DNA of 64,000 bases from the NCBI GenBank assembly GCA_902728285.1, contig CACVBU010001044.1, positions 748,039 to 812,038 on the forward strand, read 5' to 3'. Source of the stretch: Clytia hemisphaerica (taxonomy: Eukaryota; Cnidaria; Hydrozoa; Leptothecata; Clytiidae). The notes beneath the pieces are model-generated. The model did no database searches, was not told the origin of the DNA, and saw only the letters and a list, made by a program, of their open reading frames with translations. Shown one piece after another: positions 10,199 through 58,700 of the stretch; within the stretch, counting starts at the first letter, position 1; the number at the start of each line of letters is the position of its first letter. The position numbers and the translations under genes are program-made.

Positions 10199-11007
10199 AA
10201 GGCGGGCATCACAAATAACTTGTGTTCGCGTCGTTTTTAGGGCTAAAAAACGAGTCGGTCGGTCGGTCAGCAAAAAAATCGTTGGAAAAATGGATTTTCA
10301 AACCATGAGTCGGGCGAAAATCAAATCTATCGGAAATTTGAAAAGCTACGCTAGAGTCACGCCGAAAAACAAATAACTTTTATAAACTTACCTTCCCAAA
10401 ACATTGAAGAAGCCTATACTAATCAAAGTAAATGAGAGAAGAGAGGAAAAAATCAACCAGAATTTACAACATTTTTTCCAAAGCAAAAAGACGTACTTTT
10501 CTTGCCGGCATCTTGAATTTAAAATAAGAATTATATTCAGCCCCAGTTCACACATTAATTTTTTCATCCAATTAGATCGTGCGATTTCACTTTCACTTTT
10601 CTCTAGTCCAATAAGACACGCGATTTGACTCACGTGACTCAAATCGCCGTGTCTTATTGGACTAGAGAAAGCGAAAGTGACATAAATTCAAGATGGCGGT
10701 GAGAAAAGTGGTATCTCTAATTGAAAAACCACGAGGGAGAATTAAAATGAATAATACAGGGTGTCACACTACTTACTGGCTACAGGAGCTGCAAGCAAAG
10801 GATTAGGCTAATGTTTTCGGCTTTTCTGAAGGACAAAAGGTATAGGAAGGTTCACTAAAAGTGGGATGAAGCTTAGCTGGGACTATATTATACTTATAAA
10901 AATCCGACGTTTTTCCGACTTTCCGACTCAAAAGAGTCGGAAAATTAGAAAAAATCATCAGTCGGTCGGACGACGCGAACACAAGTTATTTGTGATGCCC
11001 GCCTAAG
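10199..11007. mobile_element. GGCGG-CATCACAAATA family DNA element
   Basis: Inverted ends about 34 bp long: AGGCGGGCATCACAAATAAC... on the left and its complement ending at about 11006, followed inward by GTCGGTCGG/CCGACCGAC words. The same family marks 20369-20856 and 21021-24080. No protein recognised inside. Confidence 0.75.
10587..10680. repeat. Near-perfect palindrome centred on CACGTG
   Basis: About 45-bp arms (TCTCTAGTCCAATAAGACAC... and complement) meet at GACTCACGTGACTC with almost no spacer. It would extrude as a hairpin or cruciform and lies inside the 10199-11007 element. Confidence 0.8.
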
Positions 11008-36400: not shown

Positions 36401-39400
36401 TAAGTACACATTCTTGTCATCCAATGACGAACTTTCTATCATTTTTCTTAGCAGAGCCCTACCCTTGTCAAAAGTTTACTAGAAAAAGAGAATAATAAAC
36501 AGTCAGTCACATGCTTTCAATCCTTGCTCTCTTTTCCCACGGTCTTTTGCAAATTTAATTCTTTCAGCTCCTTTTCCCAGAATGTAAGATATCTGGGAAA
36601 AGGTCTTGGACTAACGTTTACTCTACCGGGTGTGCCAGAAATAAATTACCCTCTTTAATTTGATATTAGCGAGCTTATGTATCTGTGGTTTTCAGTGACG
36701 GAGACGGTAAGGTTCTAATTTGAGTAGATCCTGACCAGCTAAGGACGACGGTAAATCAGCACTTTTACCGTCCTCGATTTTGCGGGGCGGAATTGCAGGT
36801 TTTTCCAAATCGCTTCAGTCACTCTACCGTCCTCAAAAGTGCAAATACATAAACTCGGTATTATAGGCAGTAGGAACAGTATTTTCAATTTTGTTTTTTC
36901 CGCATTACAGATACGGTCATGGCTTTGAGTTGTTTTGTTTGACGTCAGATGCTCAAGGTTCCACGGTTGCAACTGCTTGTAAGGTAAGAAGTTCTAGAAT
37001 TGACCCTCCTCGTAATAATTTCAGGTGGCACTGCGGTGATCGTCGATTATGTTAATTCCTTTAATTTTCGAGCGCATTTTATTTTTTTGAACATCTCGTA
37101 ATTTCTGAGATATTTTTGAATGTGTCTTGATGAAAATTATAGGTAAAAATATGATATCAGAAGCTTTTCTTGCGTCGGAATTTTAACTAGATCTTGCCAT
37201 GATACAGCCATTATACAGCCATGAAATTTTACAAGTTTAGCCAGCTTCACTTTCCAGAAAATGTTTTTTCCTGCCTCTCGAAATTAGATGACATCAGCAT
37301 TATTTAAAATCCACCAAAATTTCTAAACACCAAAAAAAAGAAGCTGTGTAGCGGTTGAGCATCCAGCTACCGCGCGTAAGGTCGCGGGTTCCACCCTCGG
37401 CCGGGTCATACCAAAGACTTCGTATTTAGTACAAAATGGTACTCGATGTCTCTGCCTGATACTCAGCAACTAAGAAAATTCATTGTGACACTTTCAAAGA
37501 AAATGGACACTACGTGTTGACATTATTTATTTTCATTTTTCATTTCTGATGTTAGAAATTCACACAAATCTTTATCTTTTCCAGTCGTTCTTCCAGTCGC
37601 TTTTCTCAGTCATTTTAGCTGTAAAGTGCAAAAAATCGTTACTTGACCCAGGGCAATATTTCTCAGTACAGCCCTTACTAACTTTTTATTATTGTATTGG
37701 TAGAGACTGCCGACTTTGCTTTTGGAAAACTTCTTGATAGCGATTGTATCATTGCATTGGGTAGACTGGAGTCGTTTATAATGCGTGCGATACTAATAAT
37801 ACCAATACTAATAATAATACGGGATTTAGTTTGTATAAACTAAAATTGTTCCATTCATTACTTTTTGCTTTATTTCTACTATGTATAAATTAGTCGTCTA
37901 GCTTGCTAGACTAAGCATTGGGCTTTTCCAGAAATAGTCCGTGCCCCCCCCCCTGTTGAGGATATCGGATATCCAGGGGGTCCAGCACAGAATGCATGGA
38001 TATCTAGGGGGTCCAGCACAGAATGCATGGATATCCAGGGGGTCCAGCACAAATACATGGATATCCAGGGGGTCTAGCACAAAATACATTGATATCCAGG
38101 GGGTCCAGCATAAAATACATGGATATCCAGGGGGTCAGAAACGATTTAGACGGACATCCTCAACCCTAATATGCCCTTGGACATCCAGGGGTCTGTATCA
38201 TCCTTAGACAGGATATCCAGGGGGTCTTTACGGACAATTTCTGGAAAAGCCCATTGCATCGGCTCTCAAAGGTGTCAATAAGTCTGAGAGCTTGATGAAA
38301 ACAACCTGAAGTCAACTGTGATGGAGGGAAATGTCACATTTCAAAGTTGGTAAATTTCTATTTTTGGAGCCCTAGACTGCATTTCTTGGCTCTATATTTA
38401 GGAAGATTGTTTTTTAAAAAACATGACTAAAAAAAAGACTCGCACGAAATATAGATATTCATAACATCAAACTTTTTTTGTCAATTTTCGATTATGATTA
38501 TGAGATTTTTCGAATTTTCATTCGTACTATTATATTATTAACGTTTGCTGCATGTATAACAAAAATAATCTTAACACTCTTCCCTCTTTCAGGCATCAAC
38601 CGCAGAGCACGCAAATATCTTGATATGGGACACCTCTACATGGCTTCAAACAGACAGCCTGACAAATGCTCACACGCTAACCGTCACCCAAATGGCTTTC
38701 TCAAAGTCCGGCAAGTATCTCCTCTCTGTGTCACGTGATCGAACATGGGCCTTGCATCGGAGGTCTGGGGACGGCAATCACAAATTCTCATTGGTGCAGA
38801 AGACGGACAAGAAAACGAGCGTTCATACGCGAATCATTTGGGCGTGCGATTGGGCGTTCGATGATCAATATTTTGTCACTGTATCGAGAGATAAGAAAGC
38901 TCTGGTATGGGGAAATGATGCACAAACACAGACTTGGTGTGCTCAAGGTAGTCCGCTAGACCAAAGTGAAGCGATCACTGCAGTTAGCGTGTATGGGAAA
39001 ATGACGTCCAGTGGCAGGTTAGTTAGCGGTTTTACAAGGAACAATTGGTTTTCTTCCAAAATCTCTATCGATTTACATTCCAGTTAATGCGTCGTTACAA
39101 TCAAGACTATCTTAAGAGAAAACATTTTGGCGAATGAGCCCATTCGCCAATTTTGGTGCAATTTGGCGAGAATTCATTTTGGCGAACGACCCATTTTTGT
39201 TCAATATTTTAGCTGAAAAAAGAGGGAAAAAGGGGAAAAAAAGGGTTTATAGGAGAAATTGAGACTAAATTGAAAGAAAAATAAGATTGGCGAGAATTTA
39301 TTTTGGCGAATGGCCTATAGATTTAAATTTGGCGGAAAGAAATTTTGGTGAATTTGGCGAAATTTTTAGGTAATTCGCCAAATTCGTCAAAAAAAATTTT

Positions 39401-47040: not shown

Positions 47041-47553
47041 CAGTCGAAAAGATGACTTTCGGAGTAGGGAAGTGTCAAAGACAAAGGGAAAGGGGGGAAA
47101 CGCAACAAAAATATTTTCAGATGAACTTTTAATTTGGAGTTCTTCCAAAAAATACACTAAAATCAAATCTGATGAACTAAGAAATTTATAAAACTACTTG
47201 TCATGATCCAAATATTTTCAGCTTTTGGTATTGTCCGTGTGAAGCCAAACAGTTTTTCATCACTGCATACAAAAAATTTGAGATTCTTGAATGTTTGCCA
47301 ATATGCGAGATTTCTGATATCATAATAAGGGAAATGTAACTGAATGTAATGTCTTGTAATTAAAAACCATATGACGAGCGATATTTAAGTTCTCTCCCAA
47401 TTCTCTCGTTTGCGACAAAGGTACGTGCTTGACTTTTTAAGAATCTCAACAATCATTACGGCTTGACGATAATCAAGAAATTATTCACATTGTTTTACTG
47501 TTTCATAAATGTTGTCTTTTTTAACCATTATTACAACCAACGCATACGTTTCT
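47041..47553. mobile_element. Repeat R, left part split by the P-like transposon
   Basis: Matches 26230-26740 (shared GCAACAAAAATATTTTCAGA and TTGGAGTTCTTCCA). The match stops at about 47533, next to the transposon tip, and resumes beyond its other end at about 55848. Confidence 0.7.
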
Positions 47554-47654
47554 AGGAAGCGAACAATAGCGCTATTGTTCTCCGGCTTTCGATGTTGAGA
47601 TATTCGGTCCCAGACTTCCGAACAGTCATAAACAAACAAGATGGCGGAAATTTT
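47554..47654. repeat. Left terminal inverted repeat of the P-like transposon
   Basis: Composed of the tip block (47554-47586), a variable spacer, and the subterminal block 47617-47654. Palindrome at 47561-47580. Confidence 0.85.
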
Positions 47655-48131
47655 CAGAGGGAAAGTCATACAGTTTTTGAGTATCTGGCTTTCTTTTTTA
47701 TTGTAACTTGATATATGTTCGAAGTTCTGGTTAAATTCTTTAAATATTTTGTAGATTTATGTTCTGGGGCTACTCTGAGCTATTATTTATATTCTCTTTG
47801 GAGGAATACAAAAGGATACAGAAACTTTATTAACACTCTGCAATTTCCAGGAGCTGCTATTTTGGTTTTTCCTATCCAAGTGTTGTGCAATTCGCTCTCC
47901 GTTTTCTCTTTCCCAGTTTCAATATATCATGGTTGATCTATAATTCAAATCTGAAAAAGTTTTATACCCTCTGCCGAGATGCATGCATGAGGGGAGACAG
48001 TCTGACAGCAGTCTTTCAGCACCTAGATTTGTTATACTGAACACTGTCCATTTCTTTCTTTTCTTTTAGCTGTAAAATCAAAAGTATATGTTGGTGATTA
48101 AATTAAACGTTATATTGATAAAATTATAAAA

Positions 48132-50802
48132 ATGGCATGCGCAAATCCTTCTTCTTCCAGTGACATTGTTGATTTTGAAACCGTTTTGGATCTACTTGAC
48201 TCAGGCTTTTTTGACCAAAACGAAGATATAATAAAAGAAATTAATTCAATGGAATCTGAGGTATGAAATAAAAGGGATAAATTGTCAAAATAGTATTTTA
48301 AATTTTGATTTTCATTACTTATACTTGGATATTTTATCATATTAGTCCAGGAAAAAATGGCCAAAAACCCACCTTGAACGGAACTTTGTGAACCATGGTT
48401 TTTTAGCTTCCTATGTACCTATAGATCACGGTTTGGGATGGTTTTCAGGCTGAATAGGTGATAAAACCCTAAAATTTGACCTAAAACGGGGTCTTTTGCT
48501 CAATCAAGGGTCCCCCCTTTACTAGTCGATTTTTCAAAGTGCTCAAATGAACAAACTTTTGTGCTAATCTGATAGAGCTCGAAGTGCTGAGCAAGAAAAT
48601 GGGGTCAAATGCTTGGTTTTGAACATCCGTTGCGGAGCTAGGGCCCGCCAAAGTCGTCAAAATGGCCGTTTTAGCCCTTTTTCTGCTGACGTCAGCATTT
48701 TTCCTTCAAATTTTTAGGCATTTCTGACACTTTCACTGGATAGCCCTGAAAGAGTACTTCAAGAAAATGGTATCGTTTGTTGGGTTACAAATTGTAGATC
48801 TCGAGATAATTCCATTTATAGATCTTACAAATCCCATAAAAAGTGCTGAGTCAGCAAAAGAATGCACTTTTCAAAGAACTTCCAACTGAATTATCTCGAG
48901 ATCTACAATTTGTAACCCAACAAACCATACCATTTTCTTGAAGTACTCTTTCAGGGCTATCCAGCGAAAGTGTCAGAAATGCCTAAAAATTTGAAGGAAA
49001 AATGCTGACGTCAGCAGAAAAAGGGCTAAAACGGCCATTTTGACGACTTTGGCGGGCCCTAGCTCCGCAACGGATGTTCAAAACCAAGCATTTGACCCCA
49101 TTTTCTTGCTCAGCACTTCGAGCTCTATCAGATTAGCACAAAAGTTTGTTCATTTGAGCACTTTGAAAAATCGACTAGACCCTTGATTGAGCAAAAGACC
49201 CCGTTTTAGGTCAAATTTTAGGGTTTTATCACCTATTCAGCCTGAAAACCATCCCAAACCGTGATCTATAGGTACATAGGAAGCTAAAAAACCATGGTTC
49301 ACAAAGTTCCGTTCAAGGTGGGTTTTTGGCCATTTTTTCCTGGACTATATTCATTGTTTTTTACTCTTTTTCTTCCTAATATTATATATATCAAATTCTG
49401 AACCTGAATACTTATTTTGAATTGACACTTTTTGTTCTTTTGTCATTCCTAAAATCTTAATGATTTTTGGGGTGGTTTGGGAATCACAAAGTTGTCATAA
49501 CAAATAAATATTGGTTCAAGAAATCTTTCAGAAGACTTTGCTAATAAGCAATGGTGATTCTTTAAGTTTGCCCATAGTTATAAGAGAATTAGGGTATAGA
49601 TGCCAAGTGACCCTTTCTAGATAAAAAGTTACAACAAATTTTTGGATACTTTATCGTATTCATTGTTTTTTACTCTTTTTCATCCTAATATTATATCAAA
49701 TTCTGAACCTTGGATTTCTTGATTTTTTCAGCTAACTGAAAATGTAAAACAACAGTCGTTCAAATGTGATGTTTGTGGAAAAATTTGCAAGACCAAAGGA
49801 GGCATAAGAAGACACCGTCAAGCAAAACACGTAGATATTGTTGCTATCGAAAAGGTGGAAGCTGAGAAGCAAGATAGAGCAGATGCAGCCAAAAAGCTTC
49901 ATCCTCTGGACATCAGAAAATGCATGAAGGAAGCCAAAGATGCATTGTTGAATGACGAGTGTTATCCCAAAGAATTTAGAAATGGGTTAAATAGCTTTCA
50001 TATTGGACCAAAAGATGGAGACTTTGGTGTTTTTGACATCATGTTGAATGATATATTAAAATTCAAAGGAGACAGAGAACAGTTTCTAGAACATTTTAAA
50101 ACAAAAGTAATCAAGTCTGAGGCTGACATCTTGCCAAAACTTAAGATCCAGTTTACAGATAAAAGGCTTTGCACTTTATTCCTTTTTGATTTGGGGTCTC
50201 GGTGTTTGGCATGCCTTGTCAAACCTCTGTCCCAAAATGTAGAAGTTGTCAAACCTCTCACCGAAAGAGAAATCATGGCCCTTCAGTGCTTATCTGGACA
50301 TGTGTTTCACAAAATTTACACTAAATTAAGACGTAGCAAACATTGGGAGGAGAAAGCATTTCAAATGATGCTCTCCATACTACGAGCATTCAAAATAGAC
50401 CCAACAGATGAGTACCGATATGTCAAGGCTCGTGATCGTGGAGGAATGTGGTATGTGAGAAAGGAAGCAGTTGAGCTTTTTAAGGAAGTAGAGATTGCTT
50501 TTCGTCAAGCTACAAACTCCCATGTTGCCAACATCAACTACCCTGTACTATTGAGCTCATGTTTTAAAAGTATGAGAATTCGAAGCTGGTATGACATTGT
50601 TCTTAGATGCCAAGAGTTCAAACCGGACAAAGTCATTGAAATGGACCTGCTGGAAAAATTAATTGGCTTATATTTGCGGATCAGAGCACACTCTTATGCT
50701 AAAAACATTAAAGAGAAACACAAGTTTGCCAATAAGGCATCTAGCAAGCACTCCTTGAGAAATGAGCTTGAAAAGATTGAGAAGACAAACATTGAACACT
50801 AA
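48132..50802 (+). CDS. C2H2 zinc-finger passenger protein of the P-like transposon (two exons)
   Basis: Exon 1 is 48132-48260 and exon 2 is 49732-50802; the join is phase 0 and encodes 399 residues. Residues 1-43 are acidic. Residues about 55-76 form one classical C2H2 finger (CDVCGK, then HRQAKH: C-x2-C-x12-H-x4-H). The rest is a basic, helical domain of unknown fold containing LFLFDLGSRCLACLVKPL, LTEREIMALQCLSGHVFHKI and KLRRSKHWEEKA. Similar 'Y/F-x-K-L-R-x-S-K-x-W' proteins are, from memory, common in invertebrate repeats. It lies wholly inside the terminal repeats and converges on the transposase gene. It could bind the element's ends or regulate transposition; that is inference. The intron holds a 1-kb palindromic insertion. 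Confidence 0.82.
48345..49345. mobile_element. 1-kb palindromic foldback element in the passenger intron
   Basis: Two arms of roughly 450 bp, nearly perfect complements, starting GTCCAGGAAAAAATGGCC and ending with its complement, flanked by TA on both sides. A short asymmetric loop lies near 48810-48870. One small indel (about 10 bases, near 48516) separates the arms. Confidence 0.85.
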
Positions 50803-51055
50803 TTAGTATAAGTTTGCCTCGGTTGTTGTTCCTATTTTCTATTTCTTATTTTCGATCTTGATTAATTAAGATATTGTCTGATTAATGACAAAGTGTTGTG
50901 TTATTTACTGATTTCAATTACAAAGAGTACAATGAAATTTATTTGCAGCAATTAAATTTTTCGTTGTTATTTTTTTTCAAATATATTGAAAACCATTTAC
51001 AATACCACACTGATTAATATACTGAATAGATTTAAAACTGCATCTTATATATGGG

Positions 51056-51216
51056 TCAAGCTGGAGTTTTTACAAGTTCTTTGATGACTCTGTTGGTCGT
51101 TAAATGTTGAGACAAACGATTTTATTACTTTTTCTAAAGAACGCGTCATCTCTATTGTTTAAAAATAACCAATTAGTTAAGCATCTTGTAAAAACTCCAG
51201 CTCATCCCTTATATAT
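51056..51216. mobile_element. Short MITE downstream of the passenger gene
   Basis: GTCAAGCTGGAGTTTTTACA and the complement (TTGTAAAAACTCCAGCT) about 160 bp apart, inside the transposon. Confidence 0.65.
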
Positions 51217-51502
51217 TGGTAAATGTTACAAATCTGATAAAAGAGCCTAGTGGTGATGATTATTTGACCGGCACGCAGGAAAATCAAAATTGTTGTTAAT
51301 TATTAAAAGACTATCTACAGTTTTTTACATGAATTCAAAAAATATAATTACATGCTCTGGCCTTAATAGAAAATTTAAGAAAAACTAATTACTGTAGCTT
51401 GAGAAAATGCACCAAAGTCATATATTGTCGAATTAATTGTCACTGCTTGGCCTTTTCTTCAAAATTAAAATAATAGTAGTAGTTCAATATTTTGAAATAT
51501 AT

Positions 51503-51725
51503 ACATGGTTTCAGCCCACTTTTCAGGTGCCCCCGAGTTTTTTTGAGAAATTTTTGAGAAATTGCTTTGAGTTAGGTACCCCTATTCAGCCGATAATTTT
51601 TTTGAATTGACACTTTTTGTTCCTTTGTCATTCCTAAAATCTTAATGATTGCAAAACATTAGCCCCCACTACTAACCTGGCCTAGGTGCCCTCCAGATTT
51701 CTGGGGCGGGGGGCTGAAACCATGA
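51503..51725. mobile_element. Short MITE near the transposase 3' end
   Basis: ATACATGGTTTCAGCCC and the complement GGGGGCTGAAACCATGAT bound about 220 bp. Within it, 51600-51655 repeats the word run found at 49415-49470 (TTGAATTGACACTTTTTGTT). Confidence 0.6.
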
Positions 51726-51865
51726 TCTAGTACATATATTATATGAAATGGTAATATACTACAAAATGAAAGGCTATTGTACATTAAGATGTAAATTTTC
51801 GCATCAGTTACATTTTATCAACAACAAATACTGTATTTCAAAAATCGTAAATAAAAATGAATATT

Positions 51866-54800
51866 TCATTTTTCACAATTGCTACCACGGATAGGTCCAT
51901 TCTCGAAACCATTCTTTATATAAGAATCATTAGACAAGACCTGTTTAACATTAGGAGCATCATTTCTTGCACCAATTGCCCTTTGTCGGCCGAAGTAGTT
52001 CTCTAAATCGTCCTGACAAAATTTTTCGGTGAGCACATACTCAAATCCCTGTCCTAGAACATAAGGTACAATCTCTTTAAGTGAATTGATGGACATTTGT
52101 ATACCCTCATAAGTAGGCTGGGACAGAAACATATTGTTTCGTTGTGTTGGTGTGAAATCGCCAGGCCTTTCATCGATACTTTTCCTCCAATCCTTCAAGT
52201 ATTGAAGGAAATCATTGAGAAATTTCCAGCGCTCTATTTCCTTTTCATCTTCAGAATCTGCCGTATAAGGTTTCAAGAAAGGTTTACGTGAAGTGATGTG
52301 TTTCCTTTTGAATTGGACGTTGAAGCAATCGAAAAATTTATCAAACTGCAAACAAAAATTGGCAGTTCCTTTCGCTTCCTTTGGTCCAGATACTGATAAG
52401 GCGGCGCTTGTTGTTTCACTCAGGATTTGGGTTGCCAATTTGACACGCATCAAGGAATACGAGTTTAAGTAGATATGGTCAGATTTCAAGTGGGGTAAGA
52501 GTTGAAGGCCAAATTCGATGTCTTCCTTGTAAAGGTCTTTGATGTGACGCCAAATCATGTAGAAGCCTTAAAAACAAAACACAGTATTCACTATATGGAT
52601 AGAGAAGCAGCTGACAAAAACCCTTTAACATCACAGAAATCTAGCTTGTGCTTCTAAATAAAACCGTGTAGACATATAAGTAGGGTAATAATGAGCTGTA
52701 GAGTAGATGTATGACAATTTACCTAATTTCTTTCTTAAGCTGGAATCTTCTCGACAAAGGTCAACTTATCATAAAATATCCTGATTAGTATTATCAGTAC
52801 TTACCATTGTTCCACATAAATCTTGCTGACCCATCTTGACCTGATTTCCACAAACAATTGCGTGATGTCTTTATTAAGTGAGGAGCATCTGCAAAGAAGT
52901 AAATGTATCGTTCGGGTGCATATACATTGATGGTACGATAAACGACTTCACTACACTTGACATCATCTTGATCCTAAAATAATAAAAGTTTGGGTTTAAA
53001 AAAGTTTTGCTAGTGCATAAAATGTGTGGTAAATTTCAATTTGTGATTTTTCAGAATAATCTACATGTCTAATAGTACCAAGTAAACTAAAATAGAGGAC
53101 TAGTTTTCAAAATGAGTTTTTAAAGCTGTTTCTCTGCAACTTACCCTGTTCATTTTAGCAAATCGACGATTGGTTGAAGCTCCATCAGCAACTGTTGCAA
53201 TTACTTTAAGCTGACATGATATTTCGAGTATGCTTACACACTTCCAAAACAAAGAATAGATTTGGGCAGATGAAGCAGTATCGGTTGCAAAGGTTGCAAA
53301 GCTAAACGAGAGTGGATTCATGACACTCTTCACAAGGAACACCATGACATGGGTTGCAAGTTTTGTTTCATTGGATATAGTGCTTTCGTTGATAGCAGTG
53401 TCTCCAAGGTCGAGAAAACCAATAAGCTTTCCAGTGCTGCGATCCCAAACCAGATCTTCTTGAACCTTCATCTCATCAATAACCACAGATACAAATTTTT
53501 CGCGTTCTGAAAATTTTTTGGTTCTCTCAGTTAAGTCAGCAACAATTTTAGGATCAAATCCTTGTTGAGGTTTGATATGATTCCGGTAGTTACGAAGTGT
53601 TCTTTGGGAAGGGAGAACCAAGATCCCTGAGCCATCTTTACTATTTAACCTTAGTTGGTCATATGCAGCAGATGATTTGGCTGAGATTGATAGGCAAAAT
53701 TTGATGATATCTGGGTGGTATCTCAACTGATGATTCTTGTCGGTACGTAGATACTTTTGCTGTTCAGTCCAAAAGAGGCGCATGAAGGGGGGCACCTTGT
53801 CCTCAGGAATTCCTACATATAAGTAAACAATAATTCAAAATTATTGATCAAATACTTTTTAGTTTCACCATCAAAAGTTATATCTTGACTCAAGCCTTAA
53901 CAAAATATATAACTCATTATTAAGTTCTTTTGTTAAAAAGAAAAAAGTCAAAAAATAAGAAAATAGCTTTTAACAAACCACTCGATGAAGTTGATACAAT
54001 TATTAGGATTATTGCATGAGACTAACCTTCAAAGATATCAACCAGGTCGTCACTCAAATCTTTCTGGACTGGAACAGATCTAGAACATATCGAAGCTTTT
54101 AGTTGAGCAGTCAGCTTTTCATTTTGCGAAATCAATGATTGGATAACCTCCCTATTTTGTTTCACTGTTAAAGCTAGTCTCTCAGCTGAGGTGACTGAAA
54201 GGGGAGCTCTTGGTGCTGCAGGAGTGGATGCAATTTTTCGTTTCTTAGCTTCCTGCGATCTTGTGACTACACTAAGACTTTGACAATGTTGACATGGACC
54301 ATCGGTATGAGTCAAAATAGAGCATTTGCTTGCACGAATGAACTTCATCTCACTGACAGGCTGACAGGCTTGTGAAGATGATAAATGATCAAAGATAAAA
54401 TTACGTGGAATGATATGATGTTGCAGATGATATGCTTTCTCAGGTTCCACCAAATTAACACCTGAAAATTTAAAAAAAATAATTTTTTTCAATATTTTTG
54501 ACAAAAATTTTGATTTTATATTCGTAAGACAAGATCTAGGTGTTAAAGAAACCTATACCATTCTGATTGACAATTACTTTGAGTCACTGTATAAGATATC
54601 ACATACTGGATAGGGTCAAGATTAATAATATGTCATTAGATAGATCCTAGAAATAATCTGATAATAGCATATAAAGGCATGACTTATACCTTGACAAACT
54701 TTATATCCTTCAAGCTGTCCCAAAAAGTTGGTGAGAGTCATCTTGCGGAATGAATTCTCTGGTAGAGAAGACAAAGGAAGCATCCATCCAAAATATCGCA

Positions 54801-55642
54801 CAACAATGTTCAAGCTGGAGTTAGTAAAAATTTCGAATTCTGGCAGAACAAACTCTTGATTTTTCTTCACAACAGCTACATAGTTGACATAAATGATGAG
54901 TGACCATGAAGGAGGGAGGCTCAACTTTTCTACCCGTTTTACAAAGTTATCGTAATCTTTGTATGCTGGTGGTGTCGGTATTGACAATGCTGCTTTCTGC
55001 TGTTGGGCTTGTACCGTGATTCGTTTATTGATTGATGATGTTGATCGTTCAGGTTTTGGAGCCGTTTGTATTGACTTCTGAGGGGCATGCAATGTAGGGA
55101 TTGCACCCTCTTTCAGTGCTTTCCGAGATACATCTAAAGGAAATAATAACATTTATAATCATATTTTACCTAATTTTTATTAGCCACAGCATCTACTTAC
55201 TGTAAGATTAATATGGACTTTTGTTTACTAAATATCAGTCTGTCAGCCTTTAATAATTTAGTAATACCTTTAAAGAAAAAGGAGATAAAAATAGATAAAA
55301 AGTGCACAAAATTATCAGAGGGATGTGATTCTTTTTCCTTCATTAGACTAAATCTGTATAAAAATTTTAGAGCCTTTAGGAGTATGAGTAAGAGTATGTG
55401 AAATACTTACAATGCCACATTGAATCCTCTGTGAAATGCCTTGCACAAATACGAACTCTGTCGTTGTCAATTTGAGCTTGGAACTTTTTGTCTACCACTC
55501 TATCCTTTGTGATAAAATTCAAAACTGCTGCCCTCCATTGCTTTGTTTTAAGATCACCTTGGTCTTGAGGCAACTTAAAAATAGATATTCCAGTACTTCT
55601 GGAGGTTCTGCACCCAACTACAGAACAGTAGTCTCCAGGCAT
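51866..55642 (-). CDS. THAP-domain P-element-type transposase (six exons, apparently intact)
   Basis: Exons 55642-55411, 55133-54690, 54461-54027, 53812-53145, 52973-52805 and 52566-51866 keep frame throughout and give 882 residues. Residues 1-95 are a THAP domain (CSVVGCRT, a Trp, CARHF, then GAIPTL), the C2CH site-specific DNA-binding module. A coiled-coil-like stretch with spaced Leu follows (LTVKQNREVIQSLISQNEKL, in exon 3). The RNase-H-like core has VIDEMK (Asp about 483), TVADGAST (Asp about 580) and DDLENYFG (Glu about 838), fitting the D-D-E triad of P/THAP9 transposases. DAPHLIKTSRN and RNDAPNVKQ are further family blocks. Acts in the nucleus to cut and join the element ends. It starts close to the right terminal repeat and converges on the zinc-finger gene. 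Confidence 0.9.
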
Positions 55643-55712
55643 TACCAAAATTTAGAAAAAAACAACAAAATAATTCAGCACATAATCAGAATAAGGCACA
55701 GAATCATTGCAA

Positions 55713-55820
55713 AATTTCCGCCATCTTGTTTGTTTATGACTGTTCGGGAGATTGGACCCGAGCAACATCAAATTCAATAACATCGGGGCCGGAGAACAAT
55801 AGCGCTATTGTTCGCTTCCT
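55713..55820. repeat. Right terminal inverted repeat of the P-like transposon
   Basis: Inverted match to the left end: tip block 55788-55820 with the palindrome at 55794-55813, and the subterminal block at 55713-55748. The spacer is somewhat longer than at the left. Confidence 0.85.
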
Positions 55821-56180
55821 AACTATGGAATTCTCTTATAACTATGATGGAACTCCTTTCCTCTGCTTTTCTTTTCCATGCATATCGAAACAAAAACATA
55901 GAAAAAGACTCAGTGCTTTCAATCTGATTAATCCAAGGGTGGTTTCTTCTCTATCGAAATAATACTGTACACCATCTGCATTTTCAATTATCAATCTAGA
56001 AACTTTCAAATACATCTCTGAAAAATCTGCAACACCCCTCACTGCGAACTGCGAAACAAAGCTTCTGGGATCGAAAAATGCTTCTCTATTTTGTCAAAAG
56101 ATGCAAACACTAAAATCGAATATTTTCGTTCGAATCTATAACGTTCGAATTAGATTTTCGAATAAAAACATTCGAAACTA
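55821..56180 (-). mobile_element. Repeat R, right part
   Basis: From about 55848 it matches 26750-27085 (shared TGGAACTCCTTTCCTCTGC, TCGAAACAAAAACATAG). Together with 47041-47553 it makes one interrupted copy of R. The first 27 bases after the transposon tip do not match R. Confidence 0.65.
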
Positions 56181-56552: not shown

Positions 56553-57378
56553 TAAAATTTTCGGCTGGGGATAAAAAAACAGGTAAATAAAAGTTTTTTC
56601 AACTAGGAAAAATGTCGTCGCCTTAATTCTTATAATTTTCGTCACTTTCCCCCGACATATTTACCCAGAAAAGGCACTCTAGTTTTGTCTAACAGATTTC
56701 CCGGAAAAAGAATATCCAATTAAAAAGCTGTTGTTTTCACCTTTCACTAGTGCTTCTCAAGACTCTACACTCTAAATATTTGTGAGGTTAACTAGCATAG
56801 CAAATCGGCATCATCACGAAAACGGCCGAAAAATGTAACAGGCTAGTGAGTTTCAACCAATAAAATAGCGTATTTTCACTAGCCTTAGATATTTCGCCGA
56901 TCGTCGTGATTATCCTGGATTACCTCAATATTATTTGCAACGCAAACAGAGTGGAGGAACGTACTTAAGCGTTCTGGAGCGCGCGTAACCCCTTTTTCTA
57001 AACATTGTTGTAAAATGTTCGGCCGGGGATAAAAAACCAGGTAAATAAAGTTTTTTTCAACTGGGAAAAATGTCGTCGCCCTAATTCTTATAATTTTCGT
57101 CACTTTTCCCCCGACATATTTACCCAGAAAAGGCACTCTAGTTTTGCCTAACAGATTTCCCGCAAAAAAGAATATCCAATTAAAAAGCTGTTGTTTACCT
57201 TTCACTAGTGCTTCTCAAGACTCTACACTCGATAAAATAACGTATTTTCACTAGCCTTAAATTTTTCGCCGATCGTCGTGATTATCCTGGCCTACCTCAG
57301 TATTATTTGCAACGCAAACAGAGTGGAGGAACGTACTTAAGCGTTCTGGAGCGCGCGTAACCCCTTTTTCTAAACATT
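56553..57378. repeat. Tandem duplication upstream of the JmjC gene
   Basis: 56553-57007 and 57008-57378 are two diverged copies of one unit (shared AAATGTCGTCGCC, AAAAGGCACTCTAGTTTTG, GCCGATCGTCGTGATTATCC, GCGTTCTGGAGCGCGCGTAA). The second lacks about 100 bp present in the first (56775-56870) and ends 25 bases before the ATG, so the unit probably contains promoter and 5' UTR. Confidence 0.75.
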
Positions 57379-57402
57379 GATTTTCAGCACAAAGTAATAA
57401 AA

Positions 57403-58700
57403 ATGAGTAAAGTAGACATAGTGGAAAATATTTCAGTCGAAGATTTCGAAACAAAATACTTGAATGCGGAGAAACCTGTACTTATCAAGAACTACACGAA
57501 AGAATGGAAAGCTTTGAATTGGACTTTAGAATCGATGAAAGAGAAAGCTGGCCATAATGAAGTTTTCGTGCGCCGTAACACCGCTCAAGAATCGTATAAA
57601 ATCGGACAAAAATACAACATCCAATCGATGAAATTTGCCAATTATATCGATAATTTAATGAAAGGGAACGAGGCATCGAGGACTTCATATTTAGCCGTTC
57701 AAAACATTGGGAGAGCGCTACCAGAACTCAGTAAGGACATCGAAGTCCCAACGTACGTTAAGAAGCTTCACGGAGGTCCTTTCCTTTGGTTAGTGCGTAA
57801 GGGACATTACGAATTTTGCCATTTCGATCCGGATGATAATTTTCTGATCGTTTTATCAGGCGAAAAACGAGTGAGGTTATACCCTGCAAAAGAGTTGATA
57901 AACATGTATCCCAATGAGCTTGGATCTAAAGGAAGAACGATTCAGTCCCGAGTCGATTGTGATTCACCAGATTTTAAAACACATCCGAAGTTCAATGGTG
58001 TCGAATGTTACGAAGTGAGTATTTTGTTTGAATTATTCGTCGTCACTTTTTCGAATTGTTTATGAATACTCGCTGCTTGCACCCAGACACCGCCTCTTAC
58101 ATCTGTTTGACATTTTTGAACTCTTTGAACTCACCGATTGAATATTTGCTTATGAATAAATGTAATACTTCTAACTATAAATATCTAATATCCAAAAATA
58201 ATCCTGTCGTTGTAAGTCATTGGTGATTGCTTATAGCTCGAGATATAGCGCTTGGGCCCCTTGGTAATGATCAATTCTTTCAATTTCAGTGTACGGTGCG
58301 AAGCGGAGAGATGTTGTTCTTCCCTGCTTTTTGGTGGCATCAAGTGACGTCAGTAGAGCAAACCATCTCCGTCAACATGTTCTTCGGCAATGATGGTGAA
58401 AATGCTTACGTCAGCAAAATTATGTCCACCAAACAAATGGGGTGTTTTGAATACTGGTTGCTTAACATTGTTCAACAGAATCTTGATAAACAACAGTTTC
58501 AGAAAGTGTTGCAATACTTGGATGGAAGTCTTAAGTATTTCTTGCTCAAACAATGGCACGAGGTTCCAACGGATGAACAAATCGAAAAACTTGTCGCTCT
58601 CATTTTGAATTATTGTGGACTTGATAAAATGCCTGAAAAAGATGTTCGACTGAATCATCCTCCTCCTTTGAAAATTCGAGGTCTCTTGTGGAGGTCTTAA
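57403..58700 (+). CDS. JmjC/cupin-8 Fe(II)/2-oxoglutarate oxygenase, TYW5/FIH-like (two exons)
   Basis: Exon 1 is 57403-58014 and exon 2 is 58290-58700, phase 0, 340 residues. Residues about 1-60 form the cupin-8 N-terminal part (EKPVLIKNYTKEW). The iron site is H140-x-D142 in CHFDPDDN and H221 in FFPAFWWHQV; K155 in SGEKRVRLYP sits where 2-oxoglutarate is usually held. The block DSPDFKTHPKFNGVECYE then a GEMLFFPAFWWH end is the layout shared by TYW5 (a tRNA wybutosine hydroxylase) and FIH. I cannot say which substrate, if either, applies. The C-terminal 100 residues are helical and end with LLWRS before TAA. An in-frame exon further downstream (60231-60410) may belong to an alternative end. 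Confidence 0.85.

Follow-up and report, generated by a model that had tools for sequence, protein, structure and literature searches.

A two-gene P-superfamily transposon in Clytia hemisphaerica with a zinc-finger protein whose C-terminal half resembles a P transposase domain

We analyzed a stretch of 64,000 nucleotides (nt) from the hydrozoan Clytia hemisphaerica, here called the window (positions 748039-812038 of C722), and searched the genome (417 Mb, 951 contigs) for relatives of a DNA transposon that it contains. The element carries two genes that converge between flanking inverted repeats: a THAP-domain transposase (gene A) on the minus strand and a zinc-finger protein (gene B) on the plus strand. 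Both gene models were made by eye and by script from the genomic sequence. Gene A has six exons and encodes 882 amino acids, gene B has two exons and encodes 399; the introns are GT...AG, and neither frame contains internal stops. A preliminary description of this locus, made from the sequence alone, had reported a full THAP transposase and a separate zinc-finger gene, convergent and unbroken, and our models confirm it.

The element and its ends

The features of the element, by window position and strand, are as follows.

47553..47586, plus strand: inner part of the left terminal inverted repeat, lacking the outermost ~30 nt that other copies have; contains the palindrome GAACAATAGCGCTATTGTTC
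47604..47654, plus strand: left subterminal inverted repeat; contains CAAGATGGCGG at 47637-47647
48132..48260, plus strand: gene B exon 1 (gene model)
49732..50802, plus strand: gene B exon 2, encoding a C2H2 finger (about 49759-49830), a helical middle part and a C-terminal domain like that of P transposase (about 50245-50799), then the stop
51866..52566, minus strand: gene A exon 6, with catalytic Glu838 (CQDDLENYFGRQR) and the stop 44 residues on (gene model, alignment)
52805..52973, minus strand: gene A exon 5 (gene model)
53145..53812, minus strand: gene A exon 4, RNase H core with Asp483 and Asp580 (gene model, Pfam, alignment)
54027..54461, minus strand: gene A exon 3 (gene model)
54690..55133, minus strand: gene A exon 2 (gene model)
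55411..55642, minus strand: gene A exon 1, THAP domain (gene model, Pfam)
55711..55761, minus strand: right subterminal inverted repeat; contains CAAGATGGCGG at 55718-55728, minus strand
55788..55846, minus strand: full-length right terminal inverted repeat, CATAGTTATAAGAGAATTCCATAGTTAGGAAGCGAACAATAGCGC...; the element ends on the right at 55846

Gene A has the hallmarks of a P-type transposase. Pfam finds a THAP domain at residues 6-93 (PF05485, E 1.4e-10), a TNP-like RNase H domain (PF21787, E 1.2e-25) and a GTP-binding insertion (PF21788, E 4.3e-14), and the protein matches the core chain of the Drosophila P transposase (6p5a_A) with an E-value of 2e-9. The Asp-Asp-Glu triad (Asp483, Asp580, Glu838) is formed by acidic residues that are conserved in all 11 aligned loci, the window included. 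The reading frame closes 44 amino acids past Glu838 and the C-terminal domain (CTD) is absent, as read from genomic frames, which leaves room for distal splicing to a CTD exon. At a divergent relative, C699, the frame also closes soon, and the 2.15 kb downstream of the Glu motif hold no CTD-like open reading frame (ORF) on the transposase strand.

Two pairs of inverted repeats flank the genes, a 34-nt pair that is 100% complementary (47553-47586 / 55788-55821) and a 51-nt subterminal pair that is 90% complementary (47604-47654 / 55711-55761). The preliminary description had set the element between matching terminal repeats at 47554-55820; the repeats stand, but the extent does not. Other copies share a terminus, CATAGTTATAAGAGAATTC..., which places the right end at 55846 and indicates a truncation on the left, where the window copy has lost the outer ~30 nt. 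A target-site duplication was looked for in the window copy and none was found. The ends begin CATAGT or CATTGT on both sides in C585, C926, C281, C514 and C458; in the window copy the right end does so. Among ten loci scanned, four combine matching ends with a 7-bp target duplication: GTGGAAC (C585), GTGAAAA (C926), CTGACAG (C281) and ATGACAT (C514), the last in an element whose transposase core has only 52% identity. A likely fifth, GCCTGAT, was recognized by eye at C431. No duplication was seen at C458, C680, C662, C18 and C49 (the ends of the last four were unlocated), and an 8-bp duplication with matching ends occurred at none of the ten loci. The dinucleotide TA, considered as a target duplication, was rejected after the outer ends became visible.

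Several further features of the ends were recorded. The left ends of C585 and C431 are shortened. The right terminus of the window copy is doubled at 55823-55846 (CATAGTTATAAG...CATAGTTAGG), and C431 has a similar doubled right end. Within both terminal repeats, at 47561-47580 and 55794-55813, GAACAATAGCGCTATTGTTC forms a perfect 20-nt palindrome that is retained in C926 and partly in C281; it is a candidate binding site for the finger of gene B or the THAP domain of gene A. The motif CAAGATGGCGG, which we take to resemble the YY1 initiator motif, occurs three times in the window against 0.02 expected: the two subterminal repeats have one each, both pointing inward, and the third is at 10689-10699. 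At C514 a motif of the same kind, AAGATGGCGG, contains the start codon of gene B. A sigma-70 scan of the left end, a type of scan not designed for eukaryotes, gave no match.

The zinc-finger protein and its C-terminal half

The sole Pfam signal on the gene B protein is a weak C2H2 finger, under the cut-off. Its C-terminal half carries conserved motifs (ALQYLSGHV..K.Y.KLR, RGGLW and LYxRVR.FS.AKD), and profiles of this half reach a known structure. When a 20-sequence profile was run with hmmsearch against 177,635 PDB sequences, the top match was 6p5a_B (E 0.0064; next 0.84), the CTD chain of the Drosophila P transposase, whose core is the separate chain 6p5a_A. When near-duplicates were thinned out and the divergent C699 member was added, the 14-sequence profile had the same top match in the same set of sequences (E 0.00071; next 1.6). 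The predicted fold may point the same way: an AlphaFold model of the window gene B (22 sequences; predicted local distance difference test [pLDDT] 80.6, predicted template modeling [TM] score 0.47) was submitted to Foldseek, which ranked 6p5a_B first among 350,542 chains (probability 1.00, TM score by target 0.72, E 0.15).

The Pfam family Tnp_P_element_C matches 5 of 22 aligned gene B members (best E 0.008). Across the genome, at E-values up to 1, it matches two places (0.05 and 0.92), both within gene B ORFs; the better of these passes the cut-off together with its in-frame neighbours and as a protein scores 22.1 bits against the 22.6 needed. The divergent gene B of C699 is a convergent ORF beyond the transposase, with a finger in exon 1 (YICSACGKMYVRKWYFDKHKC), and hhalign aligns the C-half profile of the close family to it with a probability of 96 (E 3e-9). 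In sequence, and for the window protein perhaps also in fold, the C-terminal half of gene B resembles the P transposase CTD, as a homolog would.

The only intron of gene B differs in size among copies. It measures 1471 nt in the window copy and only 462 nt in C458 and 463 nt in C585, so that a near-perfect, 1.0-kb fold-back within it (48343-49347; arms of 170 nt at 100% and 310 nt at 97%), absent from those two copies, looks like a later insertion. Also in this intron, 18 nt of the terminal sequence recur internally (49573-49590), as they do in C458 and C585.

Copies, pairing and co-inheritance

Probing the genome with the element's end gave 13 matches and with its outer end 14. Seven loci belong to the same family, and six of them keep the zinc-finger gene. 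The preliminary description had proposed to ask whether this gene is always present in copies with the same ends; it nearly is, but at C672 no zinc-finger gene was detected (the transposase there is a damaged piece only), and three of the six retained genes are broken (C612, C119 and C25, as opposed to the open ones in C722, C585 and C458). The zinc-finger copy of C612 sits 10 kb away from its end. C458 and C585 hold two near-identical copies of the window element: the C458 copy has both reading frames open (882 and 399 amino acids), and in C585 both zinc-finger exons align gap-free while transposase exons 1, 2, 4 and 6 are gapped and exon 1 is interrupted. Weaker end matches lie at C768, C617, C788, C926 and C355. 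Gene B matches occur near three of them (C768, C617 and C926); near C355 there is a transposase core without gene B, and near C788 neither gene was found.

The pairing of the two genes extends well beyond this family. We merged the best 150 of 151 transposase core matches into 128 loci and counted as a partner any gene B match within 15 kb. With the window gene B protein as query (117 matches, 84 merged loci), a partner was found at 43 of the 70 close transposase loci and at 1 of the 58 distant ones. Adding the divergent C699 gene B as a query (117 matches, 105 merged loci) raised these numbers to 45 of 70 and 41 of 58. The first contrast was thus largely a limit of sensitivity, and a two-gene layout confined to near relatives is ruled out. 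In all, 86 of the 128 loci have a convergent partner, one has a partner on the same strand (C824) and 41 have none, where 1.7 partners would be expected by chance; put differently, 86 of 87 neighbouring gene B copies converge with their transposase. One might suppose that a host zinc-finger gene was trapped by chance between the ends of this one copy, which would account for the two-gene layout of a single copy and nothing more. However, gene B is open in two further copies and the convergent layout recurs genome-wide; these pairing counts refute the idea, to which we assign a negligible probability.

The two genes also appear to have a common history. For eight elements, the gene A and gene B distance matrices are correlated (Mantel r 0.88; 71 of 10,000 permutations as high), and it follows that both genes travel together. 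Between subfamilies, gene B has a ratio of nonsynonymous to synonymous substitution rates (dN/dS) of 0.11-0.12 in the four pairs near enough to be listed (C680 or C662 compared with C628 or C266), at a dS of 1.1-1.6, which is near saturation. Retention of the zinc-finger gene, which the preliminary description had put forward together with the term passenger, is therefore borne out by the pairing and by this purifying selection. The term itself is another matter, taken up below.

Some arrangements at other places deserve mention. At C366:293619-304167, three transposase loci stand in tandem, about 4.4 kb apart, and no gene B match lies nearby. At C753:1344641-1357699, two distant two-gene elements are mirrored about 3.5 kb apart (transposase plus, gene B minus, gene B plus, transposase minus). 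The window itself also holds two ORFs that by eye appear host-like, a putative JmjC-type one (57361-58700) and a putative WD40 one (38575-39087).

A proposed transposase in two subunits

We propose that the element is a P-superfamily transposon with a two-subunit transposase, whose CTD is supplied in trans by the zinc-finger protein, and we give this proposal a probability of about 0.7. In the Drosophila P transposase the CTD is attached by a disordered linker, according to excerpts of PMC7776569. A domain held in this way can come from a separate protein, so that a two-subunit transposase is the simplest reading of an element in which gene A ends shortly after its catalytic Glu and gene B carries a CTD-like half. 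Gene A would supply the THAP DNA-binding domain, the split RNase H core with its Asp-Asp-Glu triad and the GTP-binding insertion. Gene B would supply the C2H2 finger, the helical middle and the helical CTD, which would dock in trans, and active transposase would require both proteins in a single complex. The finger would contribute an extra DNA contact, and its binding to the element ends is possible. Each gene starts next to one element end, and the terminal repeats may serve as promoters, each for its adjoining gene. Alone, the gene A protein might be inactive or a repressor. A precedent would be the Drosophila P element, where retention of the third intron gives, in place of the 87-kDa transposase, a 66-kDa product without the C-terminal third, which is inactive and a repressor; only the full product is active (PMC7776569, in excerpts).

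Several observations weigh against this proposal, beginning with the likeness of gene B to the CTD. The case depends on profiles of the C-terminal half, a single top-ranked fold match and context. Single-sequence and full-length-profile searches returned zinc-finger proteins and did not find the P transposase, and when the 14-sequence profile was compared with an 82-amino-acid piece of the Drosophila CTD, hhalign gave a probability of 9.9 (E 0.0032). In a Foldseek search with the model of the divergent C699 gene B (pLDDT 72.3), the P CTD was not among the best 50 rows listed. This miss, together with the modest E-values of the CTD matches (0.0007 to 0.15), is what one would expect if gene B were a true passenger or a host-directed gene, for instance one acting against host defence, that was captured ancestrally and is like the CTD by convergence or coincidence. 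However, two methods pick the same PDB chain, which comes from the enzyme (6p5a) that also includes the chain matched by gene A, and Tnp_P_element_C matches gene B ORFs only in the whole genome. We have rejected a passenger role because gene B carries the CTD-like domain that gene A lacks, and we regard it as highly improbable. From sequence and model, gene B is probably a working part of the transposition machinery, not cargo.

The condition of individual copies also counts against the proposal. The window copy is incomplete at its left end. The preliminary description had named dN/dS as a check, and low values between subfamilies agree with selection on gene B, but within subfamilies most pairs look neutral (0.47-1.34 in 10 of 14 listed, one of the 14 having no silent changes). 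The three gene B pairs of the window family give 0.05-0.25, each from no more than 3 replacement and 5 silent changes. Selection along active lineages with dead copies decaying is the usual picture of such a pattern.

A further difficulty is the absence of a partner at 41 of 128 loci, none of which was filled by further gene B queries from C680 (119 matches) and C431 (118). Ten of the 27 closest transposase loci (identity 66% or more) are among the partnerless. Four of these (C672, C355, C185 and C441) also lack a match to transposase exon 6 and are thus probably truncated, whereas C542, C332, C192 and the three tandem C366 loci keep exon 6, yet are without gene B. At C105, a more distant locus, the frame closes soon, and the 2.0 kb read downstream of the Glu motif contain neither a fused CTD nor a partner gene. 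Partnerless copies may be dead, other copies may serve them in trans, or gene A may at times do without gene B; that such copies occur in related subfamilies counts against a strict requirement for both genes in cis. They also lend something to the idea of a regulatory gene B, in which gene A would be competent on its own and a zinc-finger protein derived from an old transposase CTD would bind the ends and repress or tune transposition. Truncated P products do repress in Drosophila (PMC7776569, in excerpts), and gene B is the faster-evolving of the two genes (p-distances to the window element of 0.54-0.71, vs. 0.35-0.54 for gene A). However, gene A shows no CTD, the Drosophila product without the C-terminal third is inactive, the pair has been kept at 86 loci over deep divergence, and trans service could explain the loci that lack gene B. 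We therefore consider a regulator unlikely, though less so than a passenger, and retain the two-subunit transposase.

A broader version can be offered only tentatively, at somewhat less than even odds: a whole branch of the P superfamily may have an obligate two-protein transposase, in which the domain that germline splicing switches on in Drosophila P elements has a zinc-finger gene to itself, driven from the opposite end. Activity would then need the promoters of both ends, and the split might even predate the fused form. Among animal transposons the P element is the textbook case, in which splicing of the C-terminal part decides between active enzyme and repressor. If our reading is true, a natural split at the CTD joint would show that the CTD can act in trans, and there would be a further cut-and-paste transposon, besides RAG1/RAG2, with convergent catalytic and accessory genes. 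Unannotated animal C2H2 zinc-finger genes could then be transposase subunits, and a two-key transposase system would be usable experimentally. We found no open-access title or abstract start that names a split P transposase, although an earlier description may exist in subscription papers or Repbase Reports.

How does the element compare with known systems? It is a member of the P superfamily: it has a THAP domain, an RNase H core with GTP-binding insertion, an Asp-Asp-Glu triad and ends that start with CA, as do those of the Drosophila P element. The CTD as a separable unit is a further likeness to the latter. The difference is that in Drosophila the CTD belongs to the same gene and is joined by splicing, whereas here it would lie on a separate, convergent gene; to our knowledge, the Drosophila P element has no C2H2 finger. 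Zebrafish Pdre2 has a single transposase gene. The terminal inverted repeat of zebrafish THAP9/Pdre2, CATACCTGTCAAC, begins like the ends here, and excerpts of PMC10983969 give 8-bp target duplications for both the Drosophila P element and Pdre2, against 7 bp here. With its 7-bp duplications and a split transposase, the element would not be a P element in the strict sense. Galileo and 1360, members of the P superfamily in Drosophila, share a P-type transposase with a THAP domain, and Galileo makes duplications of 7 or 8 bp (PMC4168063, in excerpts), a range that includes the 7 bp seen here. They differ in that excerpts of PMC4168063 name no second gene, and the terminal repeats of Galileo are long.

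Among two-gene DNA transposons of other kinds, MuDR of maize has convergent genes with promoters in its terminal repeats. MuDR and PIF/Harbinger belong to other superfamilies, and their second proteins are unrelated. RAG-like transposons have a Transib-type catalytic core, and RAG2 is unrelated to the P CTD. PIF and Pong have two ORFs, according to excerpts of PMC5543537, and are in this respect like the element described here. Likewise, excerpts of PMC7204232 describe RAG-like transposons (RAG1L/RAG2L) in which the catalytic gene and a second gene converge, the arrangement that genes A and B have in Clytia.

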